A stretch of 64,000 bases of DNA from Beroe forskalii (taxonomy: Eukaryota; Ctenophora; Nuda; Beroida; Beroidae): contig WFMF01000470.1 in the NCBI GenBank assembly GCA_011033025.1, positions 1 to 64,000 of the forward strand. Direction: 5' to 3'. Position numbers and translations under genes: made by a program. The notes beneath the pieces are model-generated. The model had not been told where the DNA came from. It worked only from the letters and a program-made list of their open reading frames with translations, and ran no database searches. This document shows, piece by piece, positions 21,204-51,139 of the stretch. Position 1 is the first letter of the stretch. Every line of letters starts with the position of its first letter.

Positions 21204-21320
21204 CACCCGGATAATCCCGAAAACTTCCTAATTCCAGATAATTCCGACAACATCATACTCCCGGATAATTCAGACAACTTCCTAATTCAGTAATTCCAGA
21301 TAATTCCGACAACATCCTAC
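21204..21320. repeat. short imperfect direct repeats beside a splice donor
   Basis: Several copies of a unit containing GATAATTCCGACAAC lie in tandem with variants immediately downstream (in the minus sense) of the predicted exon donor at 21324. The stretch looks like local slippage or duplication. Confidence 0.5.
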
Positions 21321-21324
21321 TCAC

Positions 21325-27200: not shown

Positions 27201-28027
27201 GAACATTTCTTTTTAATAAATTTGCAAATTAAGCAAATATTCCCAACATTTGGAATTTACACAATAATATGTAACATTTTACATTATATCAATACTACAA
27301 ATAAGGGACTTAGTTTGTTAACCGAATACCACATAGAACATATGAGCACATCAAAGAAGGGAATTTAATCTATTGACCAGACAACACATTACAATAATTT
27401 AATCAAATAATTGAATTGATCTTTAATGTGATCCTTCATGATATCAAGTGAATGAGATATGAGTGAAACTCAATGATGATAATGAATGGAATGAATCTAA
27501 CAATTTCACACAACCACGCAAATCTACTGACAGTTTCGGAATTTATTAATATTCCATCTTCAGGATCTCTGTGTGAATGTTAATCATCCTCAGTTAGTTA
27601 ATTTAATATGTGTTGTGTTGTAAGTTTAAAAATTGAATTGAATAATAAAAATCATAAAATAAAAACAAATATGTATAAAAATCATAAAATTGATCCTTAC
27701 ACTACATAGCATGTGCCATGTAGCATTATCTAAGCATATCAAACTCGGGAATTTATGCCCAATACTATAACTAACCTGGGGTTGTGTCGAAAAATAAAAC
27801 ACGCTTTATATTACTGCATTTGACTCAATAGTTCTAGTTGCTCGGACTTAATAAGAACTTAAAAGCTTTGGAAGTAAGTATCTATACTCAACAAGTGGTT
27901 TTATTTTACTAAATTATTCAAAAATAATTCAGCTGTGTCGAACTTTTGCCAGAATTAGAAAACACGTTGCTAAACACGAATATCCCTGTTTGCGTTGCAG
28001 TTGCACGGCGCGCAATTGTTGTCGTAC

Positions 28028-28110
28028 GATGTATGACCCGCTGGCGAAGCGGTTGGCGAAGCGGCTGAGAATCAGCGCCGCGCGCGCGGCGCTGATTCTC
28101 GAGAGGGTCT
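28028..28110. repeat. GC-rich hairpin in the left arm
   Basis: CTGAGAATCAGCGCCGCGCG is followed by its near-perfect reverse complement (about 28066-28102), preceded by two copies of TGGCGAAGCGG. The right arm carries a different GC-rich hairpin cluster at the equivalent position (51140-51300). Confidence 0.65.
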
Positions 28111-28831
28111 GTCAACGTCAGACAAGGATTAAGCTAAACGATGCGCACGTACGCACACCTATGCACATGCAGGCTTATGAAATAAACATTAATATCTATA
28201 TCCCATCGTTGCCGCGCCGCGCCGCGCGCACTCCATGCGCAGGCCGCAGAACCAGGGCTTTGGTTAAGGCAACTTTGTTCGTGCTTAACTTCCGATCTTT
28301 ACCACGCCGTATGTTATAGTTAAATTAAATGTCCATGTTTGTTCACGCGCGCAAAACAAGTGCAAGGCTCTCTCAAAACTTCTATTTGCTTACAGGTAGT
28401 ATGTATATTGAATCTTTGGCAACTTCTTTTCTGTAGATCAAAGTAACATGAATTAAGTAACTTATTGTAAAATATCAATTCATGAAAAATTATACTGGTA
28501 CAGAAGAGTACATTTGCAAGTTATGTATAAGACTATGTACAGCATAGCATATAGTTTCAATAAGCAGCATTACGCATTTTTGTGCAGACTTCTTGATTGG
28601 CAGAGGCTGGATAAAGACATGCAGATAAGCAGACTTCCTGAGCTGTGTTTGCTTCAAATTTACAAATAAATTCCGTCAAAAGCACACAATTTGGCACGTC
28701 TGTCTTTATCAAGCTCTTTTTTAATCGAGTGGTCTGCACATATGTATGTAAACTATTGTCATTTTGGAATTAACAGAATTTGAATGCAAAATGGTAATTT
28801 GAATATGCTTCATGAAACAATAAGGAGAATA

Positions 28832-29082
28832 TATTTGAATTAAAAAGAAATCTTTCTTCAAGACATCAATCTGCAAGACTTTTCTCCAACTCCGTACTTG
28901 AACACCAACATGATTCCTTTAGGTAATGCAATGTGGAGAGCAGTAGGATCTTAATGAGTCACACCAAGATGAGTGGTGTGCAGGCATCTTCAGTCCAATA
29001 CCTACCTCAGCTTTCGGGGTGTTTAAATTGCGAGAGCTTTTTATGAGGTAGGCCCCCCAGCAGTCACCCCCTGGTACCAGGG
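28832..29082 (+). mobile_element. short non-LTR-like insertion with target duplication
   Basis: The insert is flanked by the 11-base direct repeat TAAGGAGAATA (28821-28831 and 29083-29093). The right arm has a single copy of that sequence and no insert, so this is a filled site against an empty site. About 200 bases of the insert recur at 48894-49095 in another place. The start, TTGAATTAAAAAGAAATCT, also recurs near 27046 and in variant form near 2640. Variable-length target duplication suggests a LINE tail or a SINE. Confidence 0.75.
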
Positions 29083-29181
29083 TAAGGAGAATAATAAGCT
29101 TTATTTCTATTTGATCAAAACAATTCAAATAATGATAAAATGAAAAGCAATATCCCAATTCACACAGTTCAAGATACAATA

Positions 29182-29802
29182 AAGGGGGGGGGTTTCACTG
29201 TCCCAATTGTCCCAAACTCAAGAAAAAGTGGATTGGGACAGGGACAATTGGGACAAATGGGACATTTGGGACAAATGGGACAATTGGGACAAATGGGACA
29301 GTAAAAATGGAACAAATGGGACTCAAAAAAGTGAAAGTGGACTGGGACAATTGGGACATTTGGGACAATTGAGACAATTGAGACAAATGGGACAGAGAAA
29401 ATGGAACAAATGGGACTCAAAAAAGTGAATGCAGACTGGGACAAATGGGACATTTGGGACAAATGGGACATTTGGGACAATTGGGACAAAAGTGAGAGAC
29501 AACTGAAGCTCAAATAGTTGTGTTTTTTTGCTAGGGACGTTGGAACACTTAACTACTGCAAACAAACACAACCAAAATATGTATTTAGTATAGTGGTATG
29601 AATATAACTTTCATGTCAATGATAGAAAAACTTGTATCAATGTAAAAAATGAAAAATGACTGAATTTTTCAACTTTTTGTTTGTCCCAATTGTCCCAAAT
29701 GTCCCAGTTGTCCCAATTGTCCCAAAAACCAGTCCCAAACTCAAAAAAAAGTAAATTGGGACAGGGACAATTGGGACAATTGGGACAGTGAAACTCCCCC
29801 CA
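29182..29802. mobile_element. terminal-inverted-repeat element with internal GGGACA minisatellite
   Basis: The ends are inverted repeats: G-run plus TTTCACTGTCCCAATTGTCC at the left, and its complement plus a C-run at the right. The interior is an array of 9-base units (GGGACAATT, GGGACAAAT, GGGACATTT) running in both orientations. The right arm lacks the whole block: the flanks GATAC and AAACCATTCC are contiguous there. An AATA-like duplication flanks the insert. No protein is encoded; open frames in the array are repeat by-products. Confidence 0.7.
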
Positions 29803-30069
29803 ATAAACCATTCCTAATATGTTTGGTTTTATACATTAGGTATATAATTTACATAAATCTAAAGTTCAATATCATAACGAATAATACTTTTTGATAATCC
29901 AAGAATCAATCATCATTTGGGTATGATTATCTGCCAAAATTAACTGGTTAAAAGGGTAGTCATTTTGGAATTGTTTTCATTTAAAATGTCCCATTTACAA
30001 AATTCATATATCCAATAAATTATCCCAGAATTTGTTTAAAAAATTATCCCATAATCAAATTTGAGGCCA

Positions 30070-33000
30070 ATGGATAATGTACCAATAAATGAAGGAAACA
30101 ATATAGATAGTCGCCCTTCATCTTCACTCTCTCATAATAGTAATAAAAGTTCTGATAATTCTAAAGACACAGGAGTCTCTGAGAATGATAATGTGACTGC
30201 TCAAAAGTCACAAGATAGTCCAAGATCAAGCTCAGCCAATTCTAATCAAAGGAGTAGACCAACATCTGCTTCATCAACAGCAAATGGAACCAGACATACT
30301 TCTGCCACCTCAGCAGCTAATGAACTTAGACCTTCTTCTGCCACATTAGCTAATCAACAAAGACCAAATTCTGCCACTTCAAAAGCAAATGGTCCAAGAC
30401 CAACATCAGCTACCTCAGCAGCAAATGGACCAAGACCAACATCTGCTACCTCAATGGCAAATGGACCTAGACCAACATCAGCTACCTCAACAGCAAATGA
30501 ACCTAGACCAACATCAGCTACCTCAACAGCAATTAATGGTTCTAGACCAACTTCTGCAGGCTCTAAAGCCAAGGGTTCTAGACCAAGCTCAGCAACTTCT
30601 ACAGTCAAGGGATCTAGACCAAATTCTGCTAGGTCTTCTGGAACAGCATTGGATATAGAAAATGATGATATCATATCTGTAAGTTTCAAAATTGACTACA
30701 GCAGGTAAAATTATCATTTTTTGCAGTGATAGGTACTTATTTCAGAATTATTGAATTTTTCATATTAAAATTAATTTGTTGCTATGATCACTTCAGTTTT
30801 CCTGACTTGTTTCATAGGTTATTATCCTTAGGGCATCTTTGTACCTGACATTGCTCCCTTTCCCACTGTTCCTGATGATGACAACCTTTTTGTCATTGAA
30901 GAAGAAGTTGAAGAATTGCCACCAATTGATGTTTATGCCAATAATATGGGCAGTAAGTGATACCAATAGGCAGTAATGCAGTACCTGTGTATGCATAAAT
31001 TACATCAAATCATCACATCAAATAATGCTATCAAATCTCAGAAACTAGTTACTCGAAGTTGTTTTCAAAATGTAAATATGCTAGATCCTGATTTCAATTC
31101 ATAGGGGAGATACCATGAAGATACAGTCACTATACCATTATTTCAGAGCCAGGGGAGGAGATAGAAACACCACGTGATGAGGTTGATGTTCCCCAGCTTC
31201 TAGAGGAGCTGCACAGTGTACCCACACAGCTTGCTGCAACTGAACCACCCAAGGTTTCTCTTAGTTTCTTACTGCTGTGTGATGAATTTGTTCTTATGAT
31301 TTAAAGAAAAAACACTTTGTAAATCGAAATTTGAAGCCCAAAATCGCCCCGAAATTTTGGCTGACCATAATATGGCCAAATCCTCTGCAATTAACATTTT
31401 ACCACTATAATAATTCCGACTATATCCGACTTTATTGGAGGTGAAGGTGATCTGTATAGAAATCCCCTAGCAGTCTACAAATAAGTGAAATCCCATCTTT
31501 CAAAGTTTATATTTAAATGTCAAGATGTTCTGATCGTAGTGCTTCCAGGATATATTTCCTGACAAAAGACTGCCAGAAATTTTGGAAAGACAGCTTGAAA
31601 TTCCTGATCGGGATGATTATTTGACTGACTTTGATGCAGAAGCCAGACAGGATGTTCTGTTGGTTGGAAATATTTCACTTGAAGATATCAAGGTTTGGAG
31701 CTGGATAGTTTTTTATTGACAAAGAACTATCTGTTTCTACTTTACAACATATCATGATCATTAGCATTTAGCACTGAGAATTCTTTTACTGAGTGAAAGA
31801 CCAGCTGGTTAACCCACTGTTCTATCTAACCCTGAAACCCTCTTTTGACCAGCTTTTCAACCCACTGTTCTCACAAACCCGAAAACCTTCTTTTGACCTG
31901 CTTGTGCACCCCCACTGTTCTCACTAACCTTGAAACCCTGACCAGGCAGAGGAGCAAAGGCTGAGGGAGGAACACATCCGGTTCCAGGACCAGGAATCAA
32001 GACTCCATGCAGAGAGAAAGGACCAGGTGGTCCGACAAACTGAGTCAGCTAAGGGAGAGGTTACTGACTTAGCAAGGAAGAAGAGGAAGGAACTCACTAT
32101 AAAAGAGGTGAGTTGCCTACTTACATGTTTTTCCAGGATTTAAACTGGAATTCTTTATTCCCGGCTTCGTGATGACCATAGACCGTTCAATCGTAGCAGT
32201 TTCATACCTTTAAACCACCGCATATTGATTTCTGTTCCCCAGAAACAACTAGCTGCCAAGAGGAGACTTTACCATAACGAGGTCCAGACAGCCTTCCGTC
32301 GGGCTCAGTCTCAGCTTATGTATGCTGTGAAAACAAGACGTGCAGAGGTCGAGGTAAGTTTCACTGAAATTCTATAATATAGTTTCCAATCACCTGAGAC
32401 GTATATTTTGCTGCACAAAAACCTTAAAAACTTTAAAAGGTCAAAAATGGCTAAATTTCATTCAGTCTGCTATCAATGGCTTGATTATAATAAAGTAGGT
32501 ATCTCAAAATTCAATATTCTTCACAAGACTCTGGAATGTTCCTTGTAACTCTGCCCTCCTCAGACCATGTTTGGAGATCTGGTATTGGCGGACTCCCAGT
32601 ACGGAGGCAACAGTGGAAGAAGGTGGAAAGTGGACTGGAACAGAGCTCCACAACCAACTCAGATCAAACTCAGGTCGCTCAGAGGTAGGTTCTTTTATTT
32701 GGACTCTGAATGTAAGAATATCAAATCTTGCCGGAAGATTTGTCGGTCTTTCCAGTCTAGCAGTTTGGATAAAAATAAAATAATTCATGCCATAAGATGT
32801 AAAAGTTATGGATAATTTCGGAAAGTATGTGCTACCCAGACGCAAAATTCTGCTTCACCCCCTAAAAGGGGTTTTAGTGGGGCTTTTGGGGTACAAATCT
32901 TGTATTCATAAAATCTGAATCTATTACTTAGATCCCGCCAATTTTATGAGCTTTGCTTATCATCAGCCAGCATCATGAATTATTTCACTAACTAACTAGA

Positions 33001-36000
33001 CACTAGACAGACAATTGTTTTGACAACTAATTGAGGCTTTTAAGCTTTGAGGGTTATTTCATGGAACCTTAATTAGTCTTTAGATAAACAAAAGCAAAAC
33101 AGATAATGGTTTCAATATCATACAGTAATATCTTCTTAATTACAATAACAGCAAGTAATGTATACTGTACCTACTCAATAGGTACTTGAATATTGTAGTG
33201 ACAGTTGTGCATCATGCTTGTCATTTGATTTCGTCGTTTGATCTTTTCAAGATTCCCTCTCGACCTCTACAGTTTTGGTAAAGTGTTCCGCTTTCTTTGT
33301 CGTAGGTATTATTATGTGCCTTGATACTTTTATAGTCCATTTTTCATGTTTTTCCCGTATGAACATTAATTGATTTTGAATTAGATTTTGCCCTGTGGTT
33401 GCGACGGTTTCTGGCTCCCGTCCAAACACCCGGAACCACTCAAAACAGTAATAAATGTATCACTAAATCGCTAACTATATTTTGCTCTATATGCCGATGA
33501 TTATACGTCACAATTAATGCTGTTACTGTACGCTAATCAGCTCCCTTGGTCACACACTAAATTACACCTTCTTACAAATGACGGCATTATCATCGCTCTG
33601 AACGGAGAGTTAACGACGCACATTCGAATACTTTTCAAATCCGACCTGCAACACCAATTAGTAGGCTGGGATCTGATAAATGGTTGCCATGGAAACATCT
33701 ACGTGTGCTCACATACCAGCCTAGCATTACCCTGAATTACTGCATCATGATGATGTCACAACTATAGTGTGTGAGATTGTGGTCTTTGTGATTTATTACT
33801 GGGATTACAGAAAGCGAGCCTTGATAAACTTCCAGTGTGTGAATTGTGAGCCGTCGTATGGGCCGAACCAACGGGGCGCGCAATGAACCAAGCTATAAAC
33901 TGTTCATGGATTGAACTGCATAAGTGCATATTAGAGTAGAACTATAGTGTCTTTGATACCTATGTCTGAAATGCATGTATTTGTGGAATTGTGAAAACTG
34001 ATTGATCAGTGAATAAAATTTTTACAATTTTACAAAGTATTCCAACAAGAGATATCAACTGTCTATTCATGAACTGGAATTCCACTAAGAGATTGTAGAC
34101 TGATAGTAGACTTGCATTAACTAATGGTGGACTTCCTAACCCCCTAACCCTAACAGTAACTCTTAATGGAAGTCTACTACCTCTAAGTGGAATTCCACTA
34201 ACTCGATAGTGGAATTCCACTAAGTGTGTCGGGCTACTTGAATACTGCCCCTGTTCAATGATACACTGGTGTTTGATGTGAGTGTAGAATACTGCACGCA
34301 GGTGCTACCTGACTAGAAAGACTAGGAGAGTTATTAGACTAACCTGTGGCCGAACGTTTCAACTCGCGGTTCATGAACCAGAGGTTCAGTTGGGGGTCAG
34401 TAGGGATTCACCAAGGGGTCAGTAGAGGTTCACCAAGGGGTCAGTAAGGGGTCAGTAGGGGTTCACCAAGGGGTTCATCAGAGGGTCAGCAGGGGTTCAC
34501 CAAGGGGTCAGTAGGGGTTCACCAAGGGGTCCTGGGGTCAGTTGGGGTCAACAGGGGGTCAGTAAGGGGTCATCGGTATACTTTCATACGACTAGTATTA
34601 CTGCTACAGTTGTCCTCACAACTTCTCCACTTTGGCACTTTGACAGATGGAATGAATGTCTGTTCCTTTACTCCTTCAGCTCATTGTGACTAATGAGCTA
34701 ATGAATCATCAGCTCATCTTTTGTTTAAATAAAGAGCCATCATTTAAAACATGTTTTGCATTATTTTTCCATATTCTTCATACCTATTCACCATCCTACC
34801 AGTGACATAACATTACATTATTACAGTTTAGTGGTTCATGACTAAATTATCATATATGAATACCTTTCCTTTCATTCGGAACAATAACCCTCAATAATTT
34901 CAATAAATTATGAGTGGCCTGAGCCCTGTCGTCGTTTAGGGGAACAATGACCATCGTTATTTATTATTCAGACACGTCTCTTGTCCATAAAACCTACCAG
35001 CTTTCTTCCCCACTTAAAGTGCAAGATCTCATTGTGTTCATTACTATAAATTATTTATTGCCAAAACGTTTAGTAATAATTTGGGAGAAGAGAGCAGGGG
35101 TCCTTTACTTGAGCTCACATATATGCGCGTGTTCGTTTTCTCTTTTGACACCTCTGAAATAACCGGATGATCAATTATCATGGCCATTAAAACGCCACTT
35201 ATACCCCCAAATTACCAAAGCACCACCTCTTCCCGTCTCTCCAGTCATTTTGCCATGGTTCTCTCGTCACTATATATTACTATCATGGGGGTTATATATA
35301 ATTGCTATTTAGTGTTGCACGCAGAGACGCTTATCTGCCCCAGTCCTTATATGTTCCTGTAAGTTCCAATAGTAGGCACTTGGGGATCAGATCACTAACA
35401 TGCACTAGAGTCGTGATTCAGCGCCAACACACCGCCTAATGTGTGTCTACAACTCCATATTACGATGGGAGAATGGGTGAGTGTTTGCTAAAAGCTGGTG
35501 CCACCCGAGCCTGGGCAGATGGAGCAGCAGCATCAGCAGCCCCTGCCTGGTTTAAACTTTTTGGTGAATAGTCATTATCGCGGTCCGATCTGTAGTGTCG
35601 GTTTCACTCGCGAGTACTATACGCCAGCAGCCCCACTCTCTACTCACATGGCTTTTCAATACAATTATACTCCATCTGGGACAGCCCAATCGCTGTCCAG
35701 CAAATCCAACACGTGGGCGTTACCCGCCCCTCATTGGTCGAAAAATATTTGCTGTACCAAGATCTATGTTATAGAGAAAACAGAGAGGAGGACACCAGAA
35801 TTAGGAATCGGTCACGTGAGTGGGTCATGTGACGTGACCCAACAGAGTAATCTAGCGACCACGTGACGCGTCATGTTAGGTTTTGTAGAACCATCCAAAG
35901 GATAAAGTCTAGCATCACTATGCCGCAATCTTTACCTTGGTCTTTGTCATGACTATTTAGTGAAGTTTTCGGCAGAAAATAAGGTTTTTGTTCTGCTCAC

Positions 36001-39000
36001 CTATATATTGATTCCTGTCATGGATGTTTTTTCACTTTCATCTGAATTAGGCAAGTGTGATTCGCGGTGCCTGAAACATTTGCTTTTTTAAATGTCTATC
36101 TTTTATTTTTTTTAAACTTGCTTCGTTCGTCATACTATTTAACTGGTATTGCTGGAATGGTATGTAATGCGAATATTTAGGTTTAAAATGAGGAAAAATA
36201 AGTGCATATTGCGTCATTAGGTTCATTTTTCACACGAAACGTTAATGTAGGTTACTTTAATCTTTTTATAATATTTGTGCCCTTATTATATATTTTAGAA
36301 CATATATTTCAAATATATATATTTTGCAGTTCTAGAGTTTTCAAGCTTTGCTTTGATGTTTGATGAAATTTTTTCGATTTCTTAATTTGATGTATAGATT
36401 GTTCAGTAGCTTATTTGCTGTCGACCGATTGATTCCCCCTTATCTAACTCTCACTCCAGGCTACACCATGAATTACTCCCTAAATCCCCCCTTATCCAAC
36501 TCTCACTACAGGCAACACCATGAATTACTCCCTAAATCCCCCTTATCTAACTCTCTCTACAGGCAACACCATGAATTACTCCCTAAATCCCCCTTATCCA
36601 ACTGTCACTCCAGGCATCACCATGAATTACTCCCTAAATCCCCCTTATCCTAATCTCACTCCAGGCATCACCATGAATTACTCCCTAAATCCCCCTTATC
36701 CTACTCTCACTCCAGGCATCACCATGAATTACTCCCTAAATCCCCCTTATCCAACTCTCACTCCAGGCATCACCATGAATTACTCCCTAAATCCCCCTTA
36801 TCCAACTGTCACTCCAGGCATCACCATGAATTACTCCCTAAATCCCCCCTTATCCTACTCTCACTCCAGGCATCACCATGAATTACTCCCTAAATCCCCC
36901 TTATCCTACTCTCACTCCAGGCATCACCATGAATTACTCCCTTATCCCCCTTATCCAACTGTCACTCCAGGCATCACCATGAATTACTCCCTAAATCCCC
37001 TTATCCTACTCACTCCAGGCATCACCATGAATAACTCCCTAAATCCCCCCTTATCCTACTCTCACTCCAGGCATCACCATGAATTACTCCCTAAATTCCC
37101 CTTATCCAACTCTCACTCCAGGCATCACCATGAATTACTCCCTAAATCCCCCTTATCCTACTCTCACTCCAGGCAACACCATCAATTACTCCCCATATCC
37201 CCCATTTCCAACTCTCACTACAGGCTAAATGATGAATTACTCCCTAAATCCCCCTTATCCAACTCTCACTCCAGGCATCACCATGAATTACTCCCTAAAT
37301 CCCCCTTATCCAACTGTCACTCCAGGCATCACCATGAATTACTCCCTAAATCCCCCCTTATCCTACTCTCACTCCAGGCATCACCATGAATTACTCCCTA
37401 AATCCCCCTTATCCTACTCTCACTCCAGGCATCACCATGAATTACTCCCTTATCCCCCTTATCCAACTGTCACTCCAGGCATCACCATGAATTACTCCCT
37501 AAATCCCCCTTATCCTACTCTCACTCCAGGCATCACCATGAATAACTCCCTAAATCCCCCTTATCCTACTCTCACTCCAGGCATCACCATGAATTACTCC
37601 CTAAATTCCCCTTATCCAACTCTCACTCCAGGCATCACCATGAATTACTCCCTAAATCCCCCTTATCCTACTCTCACTCCAGGCAACACCATGAATAACT
37701 CCCCATATCCCCCATTTCCAACTCTCACTACAGGCTAAATGATGAATTACTCCCTAAATACCCCCTCATCTAACTCTATCTCCAGGCAACACCATGAATT
37801 ACTCCCTGAATCCCCCTAATCTAACCGTTACTCCTGACTCCAGGCAACACCATGAATTACTCCCTAAATCCCCCTCATCTAACTCAAATTTGAGGCATCA
37901 CCATGAATTACTCCCTGAAGTCTGAGCCCTCCCCTCCCGCTGCAATGGAATGTACGATCTCCACCACCACCTACCCGGACACCACCACCCCCGATACCTT
38001 CCCCAACTTCACCGTGGAGCAGGTCGCCAGTGTCTGTGACTCCCTGGAAACCAGTGGGGACATTGACCGTCTTTCCCGGTTCCTGTGGTCGCTGCCCCTC
38101 ACGCGCATGGAGGAGTTCAACAAGAACGAACGGATTCTCCGGTCCCGGGCGGTGGTTAGTTTCCACCGACAGGAATACCGGGAGCTGTACTCGATCATTG
38201 AGAACTGGCGGTTTACTCGGGAATCCCACGAGAAGTTGCAGGTTCTGTGGAACGAGGCGCACTACAACGAGGCAGAGAAACTGCGAGGCAGGGCTCTCGG
38301 GGCTGTGGATAAGTACAGGGTTCGGAAGAAGTTCCCGCTGCCTCAAACCATCTGGGACGGCAAGATCCAGAACCACTGTTTCAAGGAGAAGAGCAGGGCA
38401 ATCCTCAAGGAGTGGTATAGCAAGAACCCCTACCCCTCACCGCACACTAAACGCGAACTAGCCACCACAGCCGGCCTGACCGCCACCCAAGTCAGCAACT
38501 GGTTCAAGAACCGGAGACAGCGAGACCGGGCGAGCAAGAGCAAGAACATTCTCCAGATAGCGTCCTCTTCATCCCCTCGCCGAGGGGCCGGACTCTCCTC
38601 GCCCCCTCCCCCCTCGATCACAGCTGCCAGAGTGTCGCCCTACACCGCGTCCTACTCGAGTCACATGAGTAGTCACGTGACTTCCACCACTCACGGCCTG
38701 CTCGCCCCCTCCATCCTGACTCATTCCCCCTACGCAGCTGGCTTCATGACGTATGCAGCTACAGGGCATCCTGAGGCGGTGTAGACGGGGGTCAGAGGCG
38801 CGGCAGGAGTGCGGTTTATGTCAAAGTGGGGGACCAAAGCAGGTGGAGTTTGAGAAGTGGGGACCAGGTGGAGTTTGAGAAGTGGGGGACCAAAGCATGC
38901 GGAGTTTGAGGTACAGTTGGGATCATGGTGTACTGGTGCAGATCTGCTGGTTGAGAAAAGGCGATCGGAAGAATAGGATTGCAGAAGAAACTTTAGAAAT

Positions 39001-42000
39001 TCAGAAAGATTAATATGAAGGAGTGCGTGATGTATTTCAGGACTGCTGGCATTCGAATATCATGTGAATTGTGGGACTATAAGAGTATGTGTTACTGAAT
39101 GATGACAATGAGGTAGTGATTTCAAAGCTACGAAAATCGCAGGCTCGAACATTATTCAGTGATCAATTACGAACTCTTGATACGAACGGACATTAATATC
39201 GGACTTTTCTTCCTTATTTCGTAATAAATTTTAATTTATGCCATCAATAATTGTCTAAAGTTGAAAATTTTATTAATAATTGTTTCTTATATGATATTTA
39301 TGCCCACCTTGAAATTGACCAACATTTTTGTTCGGTTCGTGTTTTCGTCCGGAAAACGCGGTACAGGAACATTGATTTTTATCTAATATTAGAATTTATC
39401 ATAGTGATGTTCAATGATCTATTGATTGATCTAAACAGTTTCAAACCTCACATCCATTGATATTTGATAATGAAGAATGAATATCTATACCTATTGCCTT
39501 TCAGATAATGTGAATTCTGTTGAAAGTTCGTGTTTTCCTTCTTTCCTTGTACAATTTAAACCATTAGAAATTGCAGCAGTTGATTATATATCTCAGCTCC
39601 AAATTCTTAATTCACTTTTTAGATCCTGCATCCTTTCGAATTCTGAAGCAACAAAAAGGCAATTGCCGCCCGCCACATTACATCCTTAGCAAGCCCACTC
39701 TAAGCACTGACTCTAAGCTCTGACTCTAGACTGTGACTCTAAGCTCTGACTCTAGACTGTGACTCTAAGCTCTGACTCTAGACTGTGACTCTAAGCTCTG
39801 ACTCTAAGCTCTGACTCTAGACTGTGACTCTAAGCTCTGACTCTAGACTGTGACTCTAAGCTCTGACTCTAAGCTCTGACTCTAGACTGTGACTCTAAGC
39901 TCTGACTCTAGACTGTGACTCTAAGCTCTGACTCTAAGCTCTGAATCTAAGCTCTGACTCTAAGCTCTGACTCTAAGCACTGACTCTAAGCTCTGAATCT
40001 AAGCTCTGGCTCTAAGCACTGTTTCTAAGCTCTGACTCTAAGCGCTGACTCTAAGCGCTGACTCTAAGCTCTGACTCTAAGCTCTGACTCTAGACTGTGA
40101 CTCTAAGCTCTGACTCTAGACTGTGACTCTAAGCTCTGACTCTAAGCTCTGAATCTAAGCTCTGACTCTAAGCTCTGACTCTAAGCACTGACTCTAAGCT
40201 CTGAATCTAAGCTCTGGCTCTAAGCACTGTTTCTAAGCTCTGACTCTAAGCGCTGACTCTAAGCGCTGACTCTAAGCTCTGACTCTAAGCTCTGACTCTA
40301 GACTGTGACTCTAAGCTCTGACTCTAAGCGCTGACTCTAAGCTCTGACTCTAAGCTCTGACTCTAAGCTCTGACTCTAAGCTCTGACTCTAAGCTCTGAC
40401 TCTAAAGCCCCTATCCCGGCAGGTATAAAAGACAAGCTGCCCGCGGGCAGGTACGTGGTCCTTGTGTCCATGTACGACCGAGTTGGTGGTCACGTGATGC
40501 GGTGGAGCTCGCTAACTGGGCAGCAGTGGAGTGGCAGCACACTGCCGCTCAACCACGATGGAGCCTTCAACAGCATCGAGCTGACGGTACGTGTTTTATA
40601 GTGTTTTAACAGCAGTGAGTTACAGAGTTGATAAAAGTACGTGTTTTAACAGCAGTGAGTTACAGAGTAGATAAAAGTACGTGTTTTAACAGCAGTGAGT
40701 TACAGAGTTGATGCAGCACGTGTTTTAAAAGCAGTGAGTTACAGAGTTGATTACAGTACGTGTTTTAACAGCAGTGAGTTATAGAGTTGATAAAAGTACG
40801 TGTTTTAACAGCAGTGAGTTACAGAGTTGATAAAAGTACGTGTTTTAACAGCAGTGAGTTACAGAGTTGATTGCAGCACGTGTTTTAACAGCAGTGAGTT
40901 ATAGAGTTGATAAAAGTACGTGTTTTAACAGCAGTGAGTTACAGAGTTGATTGCAGTACGTGTTTTAACAGCAGTGAGTTATAAAGTTGATAAAAGTTCG
41001 TTTTTAACAGCAGTGAGTTACAGGGTTGACATCAGTACGTGTTTTGATAACATCGAGTTAACCGTGCGGGATTCGGAGGAAGGAAGGTTGTCGTGTGCGA
41101 GAAGTCAGCGCTGAAGTTCGTCATCAACACGCCATTCCAAACATTGACCATAACGCCACTTCTAGCATTCTGTTTGCATCTGTTCATCAATAGCGAACGA
41201 CCAGTAACCATTTCGTAAGAATCCGGTTACGGTTTCGGTTTCAGTTGGCTTAAACGCTCGGTTAACCGGTTTAACATATAAGTCATATAATATGTGACTG
41301 ACCATTAACATATGTGTATATGTCTCAACCCACCTCACTCTAGGCCCGTGCCTAAAACACGCACTAAGTTGCGGGAAACATTAATAATGTTGAGGTTATT
41401 ATCACTGATAAATTATGTTGAGGTTCATGGCTCATGTTAATTATGTAGTGAGGTAGGACTGTGACCAGTGGGCTATACTTCTCATCATTCCTCGCTCGTA
41501 CAGCCTCCTAGCACCGATTATAGAGTGGGAGGGGAATCAGGAATTCCTGTCCTGTTAAGTAACTCACGTTTCACGTGGGAACTTGGGATCATAAATTCCC
41601 CGGAGTTCTGACGGGTAACAGTAAAGTAATGCAGTGCACTGGAATACACACCATGGGACAGATACACAATACTGAAAATAGGAAAAGTGAGTTTCCCAAG
41701 GTTGGGACGTTAGGTTGGCACGTTTACCCCTTTTAGCCACTTCTAAGCCACTTCCAAGCCACTTTCTAAGCTTATATCACGAGGAAGAGAAAGGAACGTG
41801 AGATCAGCATGTTTATATCCCCACTCCCGCGTCTAAATGATCACAACCAAGCAGCGCTAGTACTTTTCTTGTTATTAAGTTGTTACCCCTGGATTTGTAA
41901 CCTCACCCCCTCCCCAGGTGGATCAGTCAGTGTAACCTGACCCCTCCCCAGGTGGATCAGTCAGTGTTCACGGTGTGCCCCTCTGTCCCGGACATCCGAC

Positions 42001-45000
42001 CCAGCATGGTGTTTATATTTGAAGTGTTCCTGCTGCGTGGTCCCATGGTACCCACTGATAGGGTGGTAGCGTGGGGGGCTTTCCCCCTCTGTGACAAGGA
42101 GTGCAGGTACATTCATCACAATCATAAAACAGATCATTTATTTGAAACATGGAAACTAACTTAAGTAAGTGTACCATATCCTTTTGAAGTTTTGCGGCCA
42201 TTTTGACCAAAGTGGTCAATCGAATGGCGCTATTCCTTCCCCTAAACTCTGACACCCCAGTGTTGTAGAAGGGAAGTACAAATGCCCCATGTTGCGGGGG
42301 GAAGTGGATAACAGGGTGCAGTCTCACGATAAGATCGAACGTCTGATCGCCTCGGACCTGGATAACTGGCTGTGCAACCTCTACTTTGAGGTTATCAAGC
42401 TACCCCGCTACATGGCCGGTCAGAAGGAGTTTGAGGTGGAGTTGCAGTTCACAAGCTCACTACTCGGCTACCCTGATAGGCTCCAGGTTAGTTGGAATTT
42501 GGATGCATCATCGATGCATAAATGCGTGCGTGATTCGCCTTTCAGCCTTTGAGCAATCTCAAACGCCTTTTATTCTTGCGGCAGCTTGGCTGCCTATGAA
42601 TTAACCAATTATGATTGCCGTACTTTTTTGAGTACTATGGATTTGCTCACCCTTTTTCGCAACCTTTTCTCAGGACGCCGATCCCCCGAAGGACGGCAAC
42701 CCCCCGCTGATAGAGGGCGAGGACGGAGAATCGGAGCTAGGCTTCGACCACACCCGTGACATCTCCACCACTGAGGACGGGAGCGAAGAGAAAGCGATGC
42801 TAGAGCCCCTGGTGGAGGACCAGGGTACCACGCGGCGTGGTAGCGATACCACGCGGCGTGGTAGCGACAACACGCTCCCAGGGCGTGCTCCGAGCACGCC
42901 CGGGAGCGTGCACGCCACGAACCAGATAGCACGCCCCTTCACCGCACTCGATGATATGCGGAGCGAGGTTTGTAAAGCTCACGCATTCTCAGTTCCTCTT
43001 CAGACATGGGACCGTTTTGTCTTTCTGCTTATTGCAAGATGTCTGGTGATACCCAAACGTCAGTTGAATTTCAATACTTTCCTATTGACATTTATGATTA
43101 ATGCCTAAATTTTTAATTGCTTAATTGATAGCAGTCAGCCAGTAATCTATAAGTCTATAATGGTTAGAAGGGTCAAAGGAAGGAATCGAGTATTAAACGC
43201 TTTTCAACAAGAAATTAAAAACATGCGATCAATCCAATTCACGTGCTTCAATTCAGTGTAAAACTGTGACTCTATTTAGAAAAAGCTACAAACAAAAAAT
43301 GATAAAAGAAATAAATGAGTTTCGAGTTTATAAACATGAAATCGGTATCCAAGCGTCCAGCTCTCCGTACAGTAGTACAGTACCTAATGGTCACTGGAGC
43401 TTCTAGTAGCAAATGATATTATAAAATGATATTATAACTTTATAAAAACTTATAAAGGGTTTTATACAGCCAAGTTTTAGATTTCATATCATGTAAACAT
43501 GAGTCTCATGTATTTTGTACGTACGAATCACGACTATCACCAGTCCCACGCAAGTCAGATAAATTTGATATAAACAACTGGCCTTAAATTGAAAGAGGAA
43601 AAGTCCCAACGCCCCCACTTATAAATTTTACCTCTGTAACCACACGAAGCATTCAGCAACTTCGGGACCCCTTGCCAAGTTACAGGAACTTCGAATCCCT
43701 TGTCATTAGAGATGCCAGAGATGGTAAAGTGCATGTTAGTCACGGACAAATGCTCTGCGTGGAAATGTAGATCAATCGGGTAATCCTCGGGTTTTGTTAG
43801 AAGTTTTATATCAAATTTCTTCTCTCCATTCACACCAAGGCCTGAGGACTTTAAAATGAATCCACACTTTCCACTTCTATCACAACAGAGTTCTGGAGGC
43901 TTATCATCAAAAACGAACTTAAAATCATTATCTTCCTCGAAAAATTGCAGGGAACTATATACTGAACTTGAGCATTCCCGAACATACCCATCTGAAGTTG
44001 TTAGATTAACTGCTCCACTATTCTTCAGACTTTTAACTAAACTTTGCATTTTACTACTTATTAATAACTTGGTGATATAAGGTAAATATAATGGAGACAA
44101 ATTCTGTTCTGCTATAGCTTTACCTAATGCAGCTTTAAAAATTTCAGAGTTGATTGGTTCATTTTCGAACCTTGTCAAATAATACGCAGCATCAAAAATC
44201 ATCAGACTGTTGCATTCAATAGGAGAAGCCTTCAGAGTTTCAACGAAATAAAATTGTTGCAAAATATCTCCATTCTGAAAAAGATTGGGAAGTTTGAACT
44301 TTGTAATTGCAACACTTTCATGTAAAATTTCTTTTGAAGGACGAGAAGCATAATGCTTAAACAGTTGAAGCACCAATCTACAATCTTCCTCGGAAGATAT
44401 ATTGACAGTTTCAAGGCAGTTAACCAATTTCAAATACAATGCATTATTTTTCTTGGAACATGGAAAAGCATTGATATTTTTCAGCAAGTATCTGCTATTG
44501 GCATCAAGTTTATTAGAATTTCTTTCAAAATTAGCAATCAGTGATTCTAATATAATACCTTCCGGATCTCCTGCTATCTTCATCACAAAATTCAATTCAA
44601 CCTGTGTTCTTGCCGGAAAATCACATAGGAATTCCCTGAGGAAAAAAGTTTCACTTTTTGTGATTGCCTGAGAGAATTTCTTGATCGTCATATCAATAAG
44701 TCTCATTTTCTTGAGAATAGTTGAAACCCATAATGCTTCCTTGACAACAAACAATTGATCTTCATAGGCCCCCAAATCAACTGAATTGAGAAATTCAAAA
44801 CATTTGTCAACCAGCCACGACACTTCAAAGACAGTGGACATCTTGTTCATTCCTCGGAAGTTATCCTTAGAACTTTAGAAATATTCTGAGGTTCTCCAGA
44901 ATAGCAGGAATCTATGAAGTTCTGCACCACTTCTCTAGTGAAGTCCTGGACATCTAGGGAGGAGCTCAGTAGTGAGCTTATCAATGACAGGACTGTTGTA

Positions 45001-46682
45001 AGACACAATGACAGAGTTGGCAGCAATTGCTTCGCCGTCAGAAAGACAAAACTTTAGGTTACCATGAGAGGGTGATCCGAGGTACTTTATCCCAAAATCC
45101 ATGGAAACTTGCACTTTTGGTGCCATTGCTACCTGGAAAACAGATAATGAATGTATGAAAAACGCTAGGTCGTGGTGCCACAACCTAGTTTACACTACAT
45201 TATACTCAGGTGTTACGCAGCCTTGAGCCTATTATGGTTTTCCACGAAACTAATTTTTTCCTGATCCCAATCGCGTTTTTGTTTTACAAAAAGGCAAATG
45301 AGAGGGTTAGCAGAGATCGTGTCTGTGGGGGTTGTGTACATACTATCTTTATGCGTACTGTTAAATCTGAAATAGGTGGTGGTGCTGCGCGCGACCAAAT
45401 TTGGTATGTCGTATGTCACTTTTTCGATCAGTTTCATTCATTCAACTGCTCCTTTATAATATCACTCGCGCCAATATAGTTTGGTGTAGTGGCATCCTGT
45501 GCAGTATGCACTGCAGCCAACAGTTATTCGGGTTCTATGCTCTGTTCATCCTATTTCGTAATGTAGAAACTTGAAAATTGATTCTTTTTCAAAATTCTTC
45601 AAAATTCTTCAATTTCATCAAACTTTTCAATGATAAGAGGTGCATGAATGTCTATCGATTTTCTTGGAATTTTCCATCAAATTTTGTCTTTTGATTGGGT
45701 TTCAATCAAATTATCATTTTCTTCAAGCAGGAGGCAATAATTGACAATGAGCAATAGAGTTCGATGATTCGATCAATGATGATTGACCTTAGCAATTTCG
45801 CTGAGGAAAGTAAGAGATGAAAATTGTTCCAAGTATCTCATGCAAGATCTTCAATCTTGGCTAGTAATCCTTCTTTTTATCTTCAAGTTGGCACAGTTGA
45901 TCCTGAAATCACAAATTTCGACGCCCAGGAAGAATATTGCATTTGGTTGAATTATGAATATCTACTCAATAGTCGCCATGAGTATTGCACAATCCTCGAT
46001 CAAGTGAGCTCTCAAGAGCTCTGGCCTCTGACTGTGGTATCTGAGCAACGTAACATCAAACTGCAGAAACTTGTAAGAACAGAAAATAATATGATTTCGT
46101 ATGATACAATTATTTTCATCAATGGAAATTGGAAACACTTGATAATGCGCAACGCTTGATATGGACACGAGACGTCACACAAAACTCAAAAGGAAACAAC
46201 CAAGAATGAATGCGTACGCGCGCAAACAGAACAATATGGCAGGTGTTCTTGATTTAATAATACCTCTCCCACCTCAGATTGTGCGCTGTGAATGCGCTAA
46301 TACCTCTCCTACCCCAGATAGTCTGCTGTGAATGCACTAATACCTCTCCTACCCCAGATAGTCTGCTGTGAATGCACTAATACCTCTCCCACCTCAGATT
46401 GTGCGCTGTGTATGCGCTAATACCTCTCCCATCTCAGATTATCTGCTTTGAATGCGCTAATACCTCTCCCATCTCAGATTGTCTGTTGTGAATGCACTAA
46501 TACCTCTCCCACCTCAGATAGTCGAGGAGGCTGATATCAGAGAGGCAGGAGGGGACCCTGATAACGACTACGAGAACGAGTTTAGGGAGGTTTCAGATAA
46601 AGCGGGACTCTACTACAAGGTTCACAGGGAGAACCCCATGCAGGAGTACCAGAGTACCCTCTACAAGATGCTGCCCAGGTAG
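30070..46682 (+). CDS. large 12-exon gene with C2-like C-terminal half (792 aa predicted)
   Basis: Predicted exons: 30070-30678, 30832-30952, 31147-31253, 31549-31692, 31946-32107, 32243-32353, 32564-32684, 40423-40586, 41952-42106, 42261-42486, 42674-42967, 46518-46682 (TAG). All sites are GT-AG and every phase agrees; the total is 2379 bases. Exon 1 is low-complexity with 12-residue Ser/Thr/Pro units ([12 protein letters not shown] type). Exons 5-6 are charged helix, probably coiled coil. Exons 7-10 look globular and conserved: [49 protein letters not shown]. These alternating strands suggest a C2-like fold. The wording faintly recalls OFCC1-type proteins, but that is memory only. The last exon could instead splice at CCCAG|GTAGAG. 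Intron 7 holds a SIX gene and intron 11 a minus-strand BTB gene. Exons 1-6 are duplicated, inverted, downstream. Exons 1-4 are AT-rich, later ones GC-rich. Confidence 0.8.
31801..31945 (+). repeat. splice-acceptor array before exon 5
   Basis: Units of about 48 bases, each holding CCACTGTTCTCACTAACCCT and ending in TTTTGACCAG or a variant, lead up to the true acceptor CCCTGACCAG at 31945. AG positions are about 31804, 31852 and 31945, with one unit mutated to CTG. The inverted copy has the same array (about 47742-47890) with its units ending in CCAG, so the array predates the duplication. Confidence 0.75.
34070..34230. repeat. GTGGAATTCCAC palindrome repeats
   Basis: TGGAATTCCACTA or AGTGGAATTCCACTA occurs at about 34074, 34190 and 34211, with a spaced relative (GTGGACTTCC, GGAAGTCTAC) between them. 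The ends are inverted relative to each other, which fits a small degenerate foldback element. Confidence 0.5.
34370..34585 (+). repeat. G-rich minisatellite (GGGGTCAGTAGGGGTTCACCAA)
   Basis: Alternating GGGGTCAGTA and GGGGTTCACCAA blocks repeat over about 200 bases. The regularly spaced G4 runs could form G-quadruplexes. It lies about 3.4 kb upstream of the SIX coding exon. Confidence 0.75.
36420..37902 (+). repeat. 51-bp array copying the SIX acceptor and start codon
   Basis: About 28 units of 51 bases run up to the SIX start. Each holds a pyrimidine tract (CCTTATCCTACTCTCACTCC), AG, GCATCACC and ATGAATTACTCCCT. The last bases equal the first codons of the SIX frame (ATGAATTACTCCCTGAAG), and the AG falls where a 3' splice site would precede the coding exon. 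A 510-base block of ten units is itself duplicated (about 36720-37228 and 37229-37738). Because 51 is a multiple of three, long frames ([17 protein letters not shown]) stay open; none runs into the SIX frame. Confidence 0.9.
37903..38784 (+). CDS. SIX: SIX-family homeobox transcription factor
   Basis: A single coding exon of 293 residues with a SIX domain at about 36-148 ([20 protein letters not shown]) and a homeodomain at about 150-210 ending [17 protein letters not shown] proteins bind DNA, often with Eya co-factors, and control sensory and mesodermal programmes. The SIX domain has Six3/6 features ([19 protein letters not shown]), while the homeodomain start, CFKEKSR, and YPSP are like Six1/2. 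The loop after WSLP is intermediate in length. So it could be a pre-duplication type; I do not assign a subfamily. The first six residues (MNYSLK) match the tandem array upstream, so this ATG is one of many identical contexts. The exon is GC-rich and lies inside intron 7 of the large gene on the same strand. AATAAA lies 440 bases after the stop. Confidence 0.95.
38810..38915 (+). repeat. short 3' UTR direct repeats
   Basis: GTGGAGTTTGAGAAGTGGGG and close variants occur three times just after the SIX stop. They probably belong to the SIX 3' UTR. Confidence 0.5.
39223..39228 (+). promoter_or_regulatory. probable SIX poly(A) signal
   Basis: AATAAA, 439 bases beyond the SIX stop, in AT-rich sequence. 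It is the first canonical hexamer I see after the coding exon. Confidence 0.4.
39690..40405 (+). repeat. 13-bp branch-point-like array before exon 8
   Basis: About 55 units of 13 bases, TCTAAGCTCTGAC alternating with TCTAGACTGTGAC, end only 17 bases before the exon 8 acceptor (CCCTATCCCGGCAG at 40422). CTGAC and CTAAG fit the metazoan branch-point pattern yUnAy, and the array is pyrimidine-biased. Larger blocks within it are duplicated. Confidence 0.85.
40587..41060 (+). repeat. 40-bp array copying the exon 8 donor
   Basis: About 11 units of 40 bases start at the exon 8 donor itself: GTACGTGTTTTAACAGCAGT then GAGTTACAGAGTTGATAAAA. The part TTTAACAGCAGTGAGTTAC is a diverged copy of the exon 8 end, TTCAACAGCATCGAGCTGACG. 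The final unit, with AACATCGAGTTAACCGTGCG, is even closer to it. GTACGT, the donor, recurs in most units. Confidence 0.85.
41898..41965 (+). repeat. 34-bp duplication of the exon 9 acceptor
   Basis: A 34-base unit (GTAACCTGACCCCTCCCCAG plus GTGGATCAGTCAGT) occurs twice in tandem. Both copies have a good pyrimidine tract and AG (41917 and 41951). Use of the first AG gives GTGGATCAGTCAGTGTAA, an in-frame stop; the second gives the long exon. Confidence 0.9.
43555..45126 (-). CDS. BTB-domain protein nested in intron 11, reading frame interrupted twice
   Basis: The start ATG at 45126 follows an acceptor (TTTTCCAG, exon from about 45135), so a 5' UTR exon is likely. The N-terminus ([20 protein letters not shown]) is a BTB/POZ half. 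The second half ([19 protein letters not shown]) lies one frame away, and from 44850 a 431-codon frame resumes with [14 protein letters not shown], the end of the BTB fold. The two shifts, near 44957-44968 and 44850-44857, compensate (one base extra, then one missing) and both fall in short repetitive runs. The 431 remaining codons are intact, which points to consensus errors or a very recent lesion more than to an old pseudogene. The C-terminal region is unrecognised; a BACK-like helical part and a beta-rich end are plausible. BTB proteins commonly dimerise and serve as Cullin-3 adaptors. Confidence 0.7.
46258..46517 (+). repeat. 40-bp splice-acceptor array before exon 12
   Basis: Six decoy acceptors plus the real one lie at an exact 40-base period (AG ending at 46277, 46317, 46357, 46397, 46437, 46477 and 46517). 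Each unit is TAATACCTCTCCCACCTCAG followed by ATAGTC or ATTGTC, then GCTGTGAATGCGC. It copies 20 intron bases and about 6 exon bases. Because 40 is not a multiple of three, using the nearest decoy would shift the frame into a stop. Confidence 0.9.
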
Positions 46683-47306
46683 AGTGCGGGGGATGTGTGG
46701 TCATGAACTGTTCATTTTAAACTATGATAATGACGTCATCACTTCATAACTCTTGTCAACTTATAAGCGAAAAGTATAAAACGTTTCTCGATAATTCGTG
46801 CATTATAATGACGCACTAACACTTGCACCGAATTGACGCATGATATCAGCTGTAATAACCCTCTCCCTATAACCCTCTACTAAGTACTAATAACCCTATT
46901 CTAATAACCCGGCAAAGTTACAAGGCGTTCTTTATTGTAAAACTCATGATATAAGAAAGAACGCGACGGTTAAAACTGCTGCAACGTGTACCAATTTTGG
47001 TGCGATTGTGACCACAGAAAGTTACCCAAATTTCGACGTGAAATATGGCCAATCCATGAAAATATACAGTTGGGGGCTGGCAAGCAAAGTTACAAAAACT
47101 CACTTCCGATGCTCGGAGGCTCATCTACTGTTAAGGTCGCCGTCTGACAATGCTCGCACTCGGGCTTGCAAACCGCCACTGGGGGCTTTCACGGGCAATT
47201 TCACGACATGAATCTTATACTTGAGGTAAGGCAATAAATTCCAATTTCCATGTCAACCACCTATTTATCGACTGATACAATATTATGGAATTTCAGCGAA
47301 ACTTAC

Positions 47307-49716
47307 CTCGACCTCTGCACGTCTTGTTTTCACAGCATACATAAGCTGAGACTGAGCCCGACGGAAAGCTGTCTGGACCTCGTTATGGTAAAGTCTTCTC
47401 TTGGCAGCTAGTTGTTTCTGAGGAACAGAAATCAATACGTGTGGGGTAGTTTGAAGGTATGAAACTGCTACGTTTATCCGATTGAATGGTCATCACGAAG
47501 CCAAAAATAGATAATTCCAGTTTAAATCCTGAAAAAATGAAAAAAAAAATCCTGAAAAACATGTAAGTAGGTAACTCACCTCTTTTATAGTGAGCTCCTT
47601 CCTCTTCTTCCTCGCTAAGTCAGTAACCTCCCCCTTAGCTGACTCAGTTTGTCGGACCACCTGGTCCTTTCTTTCTGCATGGAGTCTTGATTCCTGGTCC
47701 TGGAACCGGATGTGTTCCTCCCTCAGCCGTTGTTCCTCTGCCTGGTCAGGGTTTCAGGGTTAGTGAGAACAGTGGGTTGAAAAGCTGGTCAAAGGAGGGT
47801 TTCAGGGTTAGTGAGAACAGTTGATTGACAAGCTGGTCAAAAGAGGGTTTCAGGGTTAGTGAGAACAGTGGGTTGACAAGCTGGTCTTTTACTCAGTAAA
47901 AGAATTCTCATGATCATGATTTGTGGTAAAGTAGAAACAGATGGTTCTTTGTAGATAAAACAAACTATTCAGCTCCAAACCTTGATATCTTCAAGTGAAA
48001 TATTTCCAACCAACAGAACATCCTGTCTAGCTTCTGCATCAAAGTCAGTCAAATAATCATCCCGATCAGGAATTTCAAGCTGTCTTTCCAAAATTTCTGG
48101 CAGTCTTTTGTCAGGAAATATATCCTGAAAGCACTTACGATCAGAACATCTTGGCATTTAAATATAAACAAATCACCTTCACCTCCAATATAGTCGGATA
48201 TAGTCGAAATTATTATAGTGATAAAATGTTAGTCACAGAAGGTCTGGCCATATTATGGTCAGCCGAAATTTCGGGGCGATTTTGGGCTTCAAATTTCGAT
48301 TTACAAAGTATTTTTTCTTTAAATCATAAGAACAAATTCATCACACAGCAGTAAGAGAAACCTTGGGTGGTTCAGTTGCAGCAAGTTGTGTAGGTACACT
48401 GTGCAGTTCCTCTAGAAGCTGGGGAACGTCAACCTCATCACGTGGTGTTTCTATCTCCTCCCCTGGCTCTGAAATAATGGTATACTGCTATCTTCATGTT
48501 ATCTCCCCTATGAATTGAAATCAGGATCTGGCAAATTTACATTTTGATTTTTGAAAACAACTTCAAGTTACTAGTTTCTGAGATTTGATAGCATTATTTG
48601 ATGTAATGATTTGATGTAATTTATGCATACACAGATACTGCATTACTGCCTATTGGTATCACTTACTGCCCATATCATTGGCATAAACATCAATTGGTGG
48701 CAACTCTTCAACTTCTTCTTCAATGACAAAAAGGTTGTCATCATCAGGAACAGTGGGAAAGGGACCAATGTCAGGTACAAAGATGCCCTAAGGATAATTA
48801 CTTATGAACAAAGTCAGGAAAACTGAAGTGATCATACCAACAAATTAATTTTAATAGGAAAAGTTCAATAATTCTGAAATAAGTACATATCGCAATTTAA
48901 ACACCCCGAAAGCTGAGGTAGGTATTGGACTGAAGATGCCTGCACACCACTCATCTTGGTGTGACTCATTAAGATCCTACTGCTCTCCACATTGCATTAC
49001 CTAAAGGAATCATGTTGGTGTTCAAGTATGGAGTTGGAGAAAAGTCTTGCAGATTGATGTCTTGAAGAAAGATTTCTTTTTAATTCAAACATATCACTGC
49101 AAAAATGATAATTTTACCTGCTGTAGTCAATTTTGAAACTTACAGATATGATATCATCATTTTCTATATCCAATGCTGTTCCAGTAGACCAAGCAGAATT
49201 TGGTCTTGATCCCTTGACTGTAGAAGTTGCCGAGCTTGGTCTAGAACCCTTGGCTTTAGAGCCTGCAGAAGTTGGTCTAGAACCATTAATTGCTGTTGAG
49301 GTAGCTGATGTTGGTCTAGGTCCATTTGCCATTGAGGTAGCAGATGTTGGTCTTGGTCCATTTGCTGCTGAGGTAGCTGATGTTGGTCTTGGACCATTTG
49401 CTTTTGAAGTGGCAGAATTTGGTCTTTGTTGATTAGCTAATGTGGCAGAAGAAGGTCTAAGTTCATTAGATGCTGAGGTGGAAGAAGTATGTCTGGGTCC
49501 ATTTGCTGTTGATGAAGCAGAAGTTGGTCTACTCCTTTGATTAGAATTGGCTGAGCTTGATCTTGGACTATCTTGTGACTTTTGAGCAGTCACATTATCA
49601 TTCTCAGAGACTCCTGTGTCTTTAGAATTATCAGAACTTTTATTACTATTATGAGAGAGTGAAGATGAAGGGCGACTATCTCTATTGTTTCCTTCATTTA
49701 TTGGTACATTATCCAT
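47307..49716 (-). CDS. inverted partial copy of the large gene (exons 1-6)
   Basis: Exons: 49716-49144, 48787-48667, 48468-48362, 48124-47981, 47741-47580, 47417-47307. Lengths equal those of the left copy exactly (121, 107, 144, 162 and 111) except exon 1, which is 36 bases shorter. All frames and GT-AG sites are intact. Amino-acid changes are few and scattered (for example NIDSRP to NRDSRP, SARSSG to SAWSTG). The conserved C-terminal half (exons 7-12) is absent on this strand. If expressed it would make a short protein of the low-complexity and coiled-coil part, with an unknown end; it could also produce RNA complementary to the main transcript. Intact frames suggest a recent origin or constraint. 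Confidence 0.75.
48894..49095 (-). mobile_element. second copy of the short non-LTR-like insertion
   Basis: About 200 bases nearly identical to 28832-29033 lie within the exon 1-2 intron of the inverted gene copy. They are flanked by GATATG on both sides; the left-arm intron lacks the insert. So the same family inserted independently in each arm after the duplication. Confidence 0.75.
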
Positions 49717-50672
49717 TGGCCTCAAATTTGATTATGTGATAATTTTTTTCAACAAATTCTGGGATAATTTATTGGATATATAAATTTTGTAAATGACACA
49801 TTTTAAATGAAAACAATTCCAAAATGACTACCCTTTTAACCAGTTTATTTTGTCATATAATCATACCCAAATGATGATTGATCATAGATTATCAAAAAGT
49901 ATTATTTGTTACAATATTGAACTTTAGATTTACGTAAATCATATAATGCATAAAACATAACATATAAGGAATGGTTTATAGTATCTTGAACTGTGCGAAT
50001 TGTGATATTGCTTTTCATTTTATCATTATTTTAATTGTTTTGATCAAATAGAAATAAAGCTTATTATTCTCCTTATTATTTCATGAAGCATATTCAAAAT
50101 ACCACTCTGCATTCAAATTCTGTTAATTCCAAGATGACAATAGTTTACATATACATGTGTGCAGACCACTCGATTAAAAAAGAGCTTGATAAAGACAGAC
50201 GTGCCAAATTGTGTGCTTTTGACGGAATTTATATGTAAATTTGAAGCACACACAGGAAATCTGCTTATCTGCACGTCTTTATCAAGCCTCTGCCAATCAA
50301 CTTCAAGCAGTCTGCACACAACTGCGTAATGCTGCTTACTTAAACTAAATGCTATGCTGTACATAGTCTTATACATAACTTGCTTGCTAAACACGTATAT
50401 CCCTGTCTGCGGGCTTAGGAAATAACTTGCAAATGTACTTTTCTGTGCCAGTATAATTTTTCATCAATTGACATTTGACATTTTACAATAAGTTACTTCA
50501 TTCATTGTTCATGTTACTTTGTTCTACAGAAAAGAAGTTACTTAATTCACATTACTAATTGCTAAAGATTCAATATACATACTATCTGTGGGCAATTAGA
50601 AGGTTTGGAGAGAGCGTTGTTTTGCAGCACGCGCGAACAAACATGGACACGTAACTATAACATGTGGTAAAG

Positions 50673-50690
50673 ATCGGAAGTTAAGCACGA
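50673..50690 (+). repeat. 5S rRNA-like fragment
   Basis: GATCGGAAGTTAAGCACG resembles the box A region of eukaryotic 5S rRNA genes (GAAGTTAAGCA is exact for many). It is present also in the left arm (about 28291-28308, opposite strand). The remaining promoter boxes are not recognisable, so this is at most a relic, perhaps of a 5S-derived SINE. Confidence 0.3.
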
Positions 50691-50694
50691 ACAA

Positions 50695-51029: not shown

Positions 51030-51139
51030 CAAACCAAAGCCCTGCGGTTTTAGTTCTGCGGCGCGGCAACGATGGAATATTTATAATTATAATATAAATG
51101 TTCATTTCATAAGCCTGCACAGGTGTGCGTAGGCGCGCG

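Follow-up and report, generated by a model that had tools for sequence, protein, structure and literature searches.

Gene G, a predicted 12-exon gene in the window (the whole stretch of 64,000 nucleotides analysed here), carries five intronic tandem arrays no more than 17 bp from a splice junction, one at a donor and four at acceptors. We read these arrays, with a probability of about two in three, as mirage-type minisatellites, which are tolerated, lengthen the introns and have no product of their own. Mirages, as described in lancelets, are minisatellite-like tandem duplications lying over 5′ or 3′ intron–exon boundaries (PMC3087553, PMC3902484), and gene G is likely a mirage-like locus outside lancelets, of an already described kind. 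The coordinates of the gene, its arrays and the neighbouring features are collected in Table 1.

The gene G exon edges proposed in an earlier, sequence-only reading of this DNA fit the 12-exon model in frame, phase and GT/AG ends and are upheld here; the frame stays open when the exon-facing splice sites are used. The gene extends at least to position 46678, with its 3′ end lying beyond. No Pfam match at E 0.01 was found for the full predicted protein or at E 1 for the 204-aa part encoded by exons 7–10, and a PDB sequence search with the 464-aa part from exons 5–12 returned no match at E 1. Intron 7 contains a SIX1/2 coding frame whose product shares 114 of 178 positions (64%) with human SIX1, and 42 of 59 around the homeodomain. 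A lancelet Six1/2 would be expected to stand much nearer to human SIX1 than this, so that a lancelet host is unlikely. Contig searches with a 76-aa SIX query gave 10 pattern matches in viral contigs and 115 in genome contigs, among which there was no confirmed locus, and found no relatives that could date the introns of gene G. On the opposite strand of intron 11, a 439-aa open frame (43555–44874, −) has no Pfam match.

Table 1 Gene G, its tandem arrays and neighbouring features, in coordinates of the window.
Feature	Position	Strand	Basis
Gene G, 12 predicted exons	30070..46678	+	791-aa open frame, GT/AG ends, consistent phases
Gene G predicted exons 1–4	30070-30678, 30832-30952, 31147-31253, 31549-31692	+	
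Gene G predicted exons 5–8	31946-32107, 32243-32353, 32564-32684, 40423-40586	+	
Gene G predicted exons 9–12	41952-42106, 42261-42486, 42674-42967, 46518-46678	+	
48-bp array, three units, ending at exon 5 acceptor	31799..31945	+	TRF 31799-31939; to AG by eye
13-bp array of 54 CTGAC-bearing units, gap of 17 bp to exon 8	39697..40405	+	TRF
40-bp array from exon 8 donor	40587..41066	+	TRF 40601-41045; extended by eye to donor and 41066
34-bp duplication spanning exon 9 acceptor, 16 exon bases inside	41896..41967	+	TRF
40-bp array spanning exon 12 acceptor, 6 exon bases inside	46258..46523	+	TRF
51-bp array, 29 units, spanning SIX1/2 start codon	36434..37916	+	TRF
SIX1/2 homeobox coding frame, nested in gene G intron 7	37903..38784	+	Pfam SIX1_SD and Homeodomain
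Arm B (inverted) copy of the array at the exon 5 acceptor, not an independent case	47748..47886	-	TRF
Repeat from +3 of putative exon 6 donor (21324), PB1-domain gene, possible further mirage	21206..21324	-	

Arrays with all the periods given by the sequence-only reading (48, 13, 40, 34, 40 and 51 bp) are present in the TRF results. It had placed at least six of them at splice sites; five stand, at the acceptors of exons 5, 8, 9 and 12 and at the donor of exon 8, but the array at SIX1/2 does not. A mirage spans or abuts a boundary, and the five cases differ in how they do so. The arrays at exons 9 and 12 span the boundary. At exon 12 there are seven acceptor copies, the seventh of which is the true one; all seven keep the register of the junction and carry CAG, as do both copies at exon 9. 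Two more arrays, that of the exon 5 acceptor and that of the exon 8 donor, reach the boundary by eye, the former running up to the AG with GACCAG as its last bases at the junction, the latter beginning at the GT and repeating GTACGTGTTTTA. Exon bases, which had been thought to form part of several units, are indeed present at exons 9 and 12, while the exon 5 array includes none. Similarly, a combination of donor and exon-end copies had been proposed after exon 8: the donor copies do run from the GT, but the likeness of the exon 8 end to the last units of the array is degenerate and rests on a gapped alignment whose score is matched by 2 of 1000 shuffles. Beyond this array, positions ~41049–41066 may hold an older copy of the exon 8 end (by eye only). 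The fifth array, before exon 8, stops 17 bp off the exon. Its 13-bp units and their CTGAC are present as described, and the last A of this motif lies 23 bp from the exon 8 AG by hand count; judged by the consensus, the motif is branch-point-like.

The sixth candidate, the 51-bp array, was rejected as a splice-site array: it covers the SIX1/2 start codon, the copy nearest the gene has GAG at its end in place of CAG or TAG, and no intron is evident there. Its last four units depart from the consensus at 7–10 of 51 positions, and one inner unit also does so at 8 of 51. Most of its units carry a CACCATG start context, which would supply many upstream start codons if the array were transcribed unspliced.

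The sequence-only reading knew of no described system of this kind, a statement that does not hold in view of the lancelet mirages (PMC3087553, PMC3902484). These have been described in Adh3, the globin genes BflGb6 and BflGb9, troponin C and PGBD5 (PMC3087553, PMC3902484), and in the literature reached by our search the term is found in this sense only for lancelets. Many lancelet units carry AG or GT, the Adh3 units measure 10–72 bp, and end units are described as escaping homogenisation, divergent end units being reported for the BflGb6 globin mirage (PMC3087553). As in these mirages, donor as well as acceptor boundaries are affected in gene G, and the units of 13–48 bp fall within the Adh3 range. 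The end units of the gene G arrays give a mixed picture, being the most divergent ones in the array of the exon 8 donor and, on the gene side, in that of exon 12. What differs is that five arrays occupy one gene here and that the host is probably not a lancelet. The divergence is visible unit by unit: the end units of the exon 8 donor array are 12/40 and 14/40 off consensus as against 0–6/40 inside, and the last unit of the exon 12 array is 9/40 off (partly because it is exon) as against 2–4/40 in the others. The three units of the exon 5 array in the gene itself are 5, 4 and 11 of 48 off consensus, and a unit-by-unit comparison of the 13-bp array found no divergent end unit on its exon side.

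Two other kinds of boundary duplication resemble the gene G arrays in part. Human segmental duplications contain internal tandem repeats at exon–intron boundaries that alter intron structure, and these are described as found between recent paralogues with alternative transcripts (PMC2812944). The gene G arrays likewise sit at boundaries and alter intron structure, whereas the duplicated part of the gene includes only one of the five. In intron gain by tandem genomic duplication, as in the Rogers model and potato RdRp, a duplication also crosses an intron–exon boundary (PMC4974935); the gene G copies, in contrast, sit inside existing introns, and no new intron is evident. A role in intron growth, which had been suggested, does find agreement insofar as the arrays make the introns longer: they account for 141 of 253 bp in intron 4 and for 445 of 1365 bp in intron 8.

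In the mirage reading, a short tandem duplication would cover or abut a splice junction. Slippage or unequal exchange would then expand it and homogenise its units. The copy that faces the exon would remain beside it, which would keep the normal junction, while the intron-side copies would leave with the spliced-out intron. Splicing would thus proceed normally, with exon definition choosing the exon-facing site, and the additional copies would be neutral.

Part of the locus is present twice in the window, as exons 1–6 of gene G and upstream sequence (arm A, 27769–32386, +) recur as an inverted segmental copy (arm B, 51570–47274, −) that may represent either a truncated duplicate or a haplotype put in the wrong place. 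Between the arms, pS is 0.059 and pN 0.009 in exons (pN/pS ~0.15), 750 of 807 aligned positions are identical in introns 1–5 outside the array, and 128 of 145 are identical in the exon 5 array. Lancelet mirages are described as polymorphic in length, among haplotypes or among somatic cells. The exon 5 array has three units in both arms, with no change of copy number in this single comparison, and therefore probably predates the inverted copy. In exon 1, a coding 36-bp repeat of the RPTSATS type is found in both arms (30255–30629 and 49192–49530), arm B being without one unit (36 bp). If arms A and B are misplaced haplotypes, the assembly itself comes under suspicion, and a lancelet globin mirage is reported to have been misassembled in a draft genome (PMC3087553). 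It is nevertheless highly improbable that collapsed or expanded repeats, or joined haplotypes, produced the appearance of arrays in gene G, given that the units differ from one another along the arrays, that the unit number at exon 5 agrees between the arms, and that resequencing is reported to have confirmed such repeats in lancelet PGBD5 (PMC3902484).

The placement of the arrays was compared with shuffles in which each array was moved within its own intron, an overhang of 20 bp into exons being allowed. Among the 15 arrays in gene G introns (merged TRF rows with a score of at least 45), five lie within 17 bp of a junction against 0.92 expected (p ~3e-4) and three lie within 6 bp against 0.66 expected (p 0.015), the p values here and below being optimistic because the gene was chosen post hoc, after its arrays had been seen. 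When the set is confined to the ten stronger arrays (score of at least 70), five are within 17 bp, with p at 1e-4 or less at four overhang settings from 0 to 30 bp, and after removal of the intron 4 array four of nine remain so placed, with 0.27 expected (p 6e-5). Two of the ten strictly span a junction, for which p runs from 1e-4 to 0.08 according to the overhang setting. Over the whole window, which offers 45 junctions in four genes, 5 of 39 arrays are within 17 bp against 1.16 expected (p 0.007), and for arrays scoring at least 100 the count is 5 of 14 against 0.34 expected, reached in 0 of 3000 shuffles. In this whole-window count, overlapping TRF rows had been joined by hand, the exons of minus-strand genes had been picked by eye, and the exonic TRF arrays starting at 5628, 30255, 42672 and 42826 as well as the arm B arrays (47274–51570) were left out.

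A test by junction gives a different picture. Of the 23 gene G junctions, two lie in a strong repeat (score of at least 16), no excess over the 14% of sampled non-coding positions in the window or the 30% of gene G intron positions that do so; at a score of 14, 3 of the 45 junctions of the four genes do, again no excess over a null of 16%. This null contains random points that often fall in the interiors of long arrays, which a junction cannot. The result is what would be expected if minisatellites are simply abundant in gene G introns, so that a few land at intron ends by chance and the gene was noticed for it. Consistent with this, 10 of its 15 arrays lie at least 180 bp from any junction, and all five cases are in this one gene: for the 22 junctions counted in the window's other three genes, TRF gave no array as near as 17 bp. 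We consider chance an unlikely explanation, though one with weight: array edges cluster at junctions beyond the shuffles, also when the short intron 4 is set aside, and at exons 9 and 12 the units keep register with the junction and take in exon bases. The earlier claim that array edges lie at intron ends above chance is accordingly borne out by the gene G shuffles and, more weakly, across the window, but not by the test per junction. Splice-motif content was discarded as evidence, because a unit-wise score finds splice-like motifs in 2 of 5 arrays at gene G junctions but also in 7 of the 25 scored elsewhere, the SIX array being one of them; it is the register with the junction that counts instead. 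This scoring took in 25 of the 34 other arrays, nine short ones being omitted.

Decoy sites within the arrays were scored with thresholds of our own, at least 8 of 14 pyrimidines plus CAG or TAG for acceptors and at least 6 of 9 matches to the consensus MAG/GTRAGT for donors. Many of them equal the authentic site: the exon 12 decoys reach 11 of 14 pyrimidines, as does the true acceptor, and several GTACGT copies after exon 8 match the donor consensus at 7 of 9 positions, as does the true donor. Use of a decoy leads to a premature stop in 41 of 41 scored (21 acceptors and 20 donors). Therefore neither productive isoforms from alternative splice sites nor the rescue of lost splice sites, both put forward by the sequence-only reading, is supported as a present role. 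The copies might instead have a selected function, as decoys or alternative sites that tune the splicing of gene G, for example via degraded transcripts, an idea that gains from the scores of the decoys and from a human precedent. In the minisatellite of IFI6 (6-16), repeat units at the exon end are described as providing several splice donors (PMC4526556); gene G similarly has tandem units with donor sites at an exon end, but the IFI6 units serve as donors whereas the scored decoys of gene G give premature stops. We regard such a function as improbable. The stops are no sign of selection, because intron sequence usually gives them, and they are as expected of unselected intron sequence; published mirages, moreover, are reported not to disturb regular splicing (PMC3902484, PMC3087553).

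Beyond the reading of gene G as a mirage-like locus, we suggest tentatively, at odds clearly short of even, that junction-directed duplication also operates in an animal lineage remote from lancelets, with a high number of arrays per gene, intron ends being general hot spots of minisatellite birth in some animal genomes. Were junction enrichment to hold genome-wide in this animal, what looks like a lancelet oddity would turn out to be a more widespread process that lengthens introns and supplies material from which new splice sites and introns can arise, and the reason for duplications beginning at intron ends could be addressed directly. Were there no such enrichment, the gene G locus would be an ordinary array-rich gene.

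A further possible mirage lies in the PB1-domain gene on the minus strand. The repeat at its putative exon 6 donor comprises 58 aligned columns with one 8-bp gap, and the TRF count missed it, as the edge that TRF assigns to it stands 38 bp off the junction. It is possibly a second mirage, or a coding repeat (by read-through) before a stop. The exon at the repeat has a weak C2H2-like match, and in the model of this gene the exon 2–3 and 4–5 joins are not phase-consistent.

Other observations concern the remainder of the window. A homeobox gene of at least five exons (5560–9164, −) shows no TRF array as close as 17 bp at any of the nine junctions examined; a 13-bp repeat lies 28 bp inside its exon 3 donor. 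At 3098–4659 there is a large array with units of ~18–20 bp, whose two halves match in inverted orientation; the single tRNA-Ser called by ARAGORN lies inside it and was rejected as probably spurious, and a search of Rfam at the gathering score gave 0 matches. The GC-rich palindromes at 2780–2910 and 51210–51290, with GCCAGGCGTTGCCTGG-like ends, resemble small fold-back elements by eye. A fragment at 52706–53377 (+) matches a non-LTR retrotransposon endonuclease, and one at 59507–60232 (+) matches a DDE transposase slightly under the Pfam cut-off. At 56346–56497, about four copies of a 37-bp unit are 100% identical, which points to an array that is very recent or under exchange.
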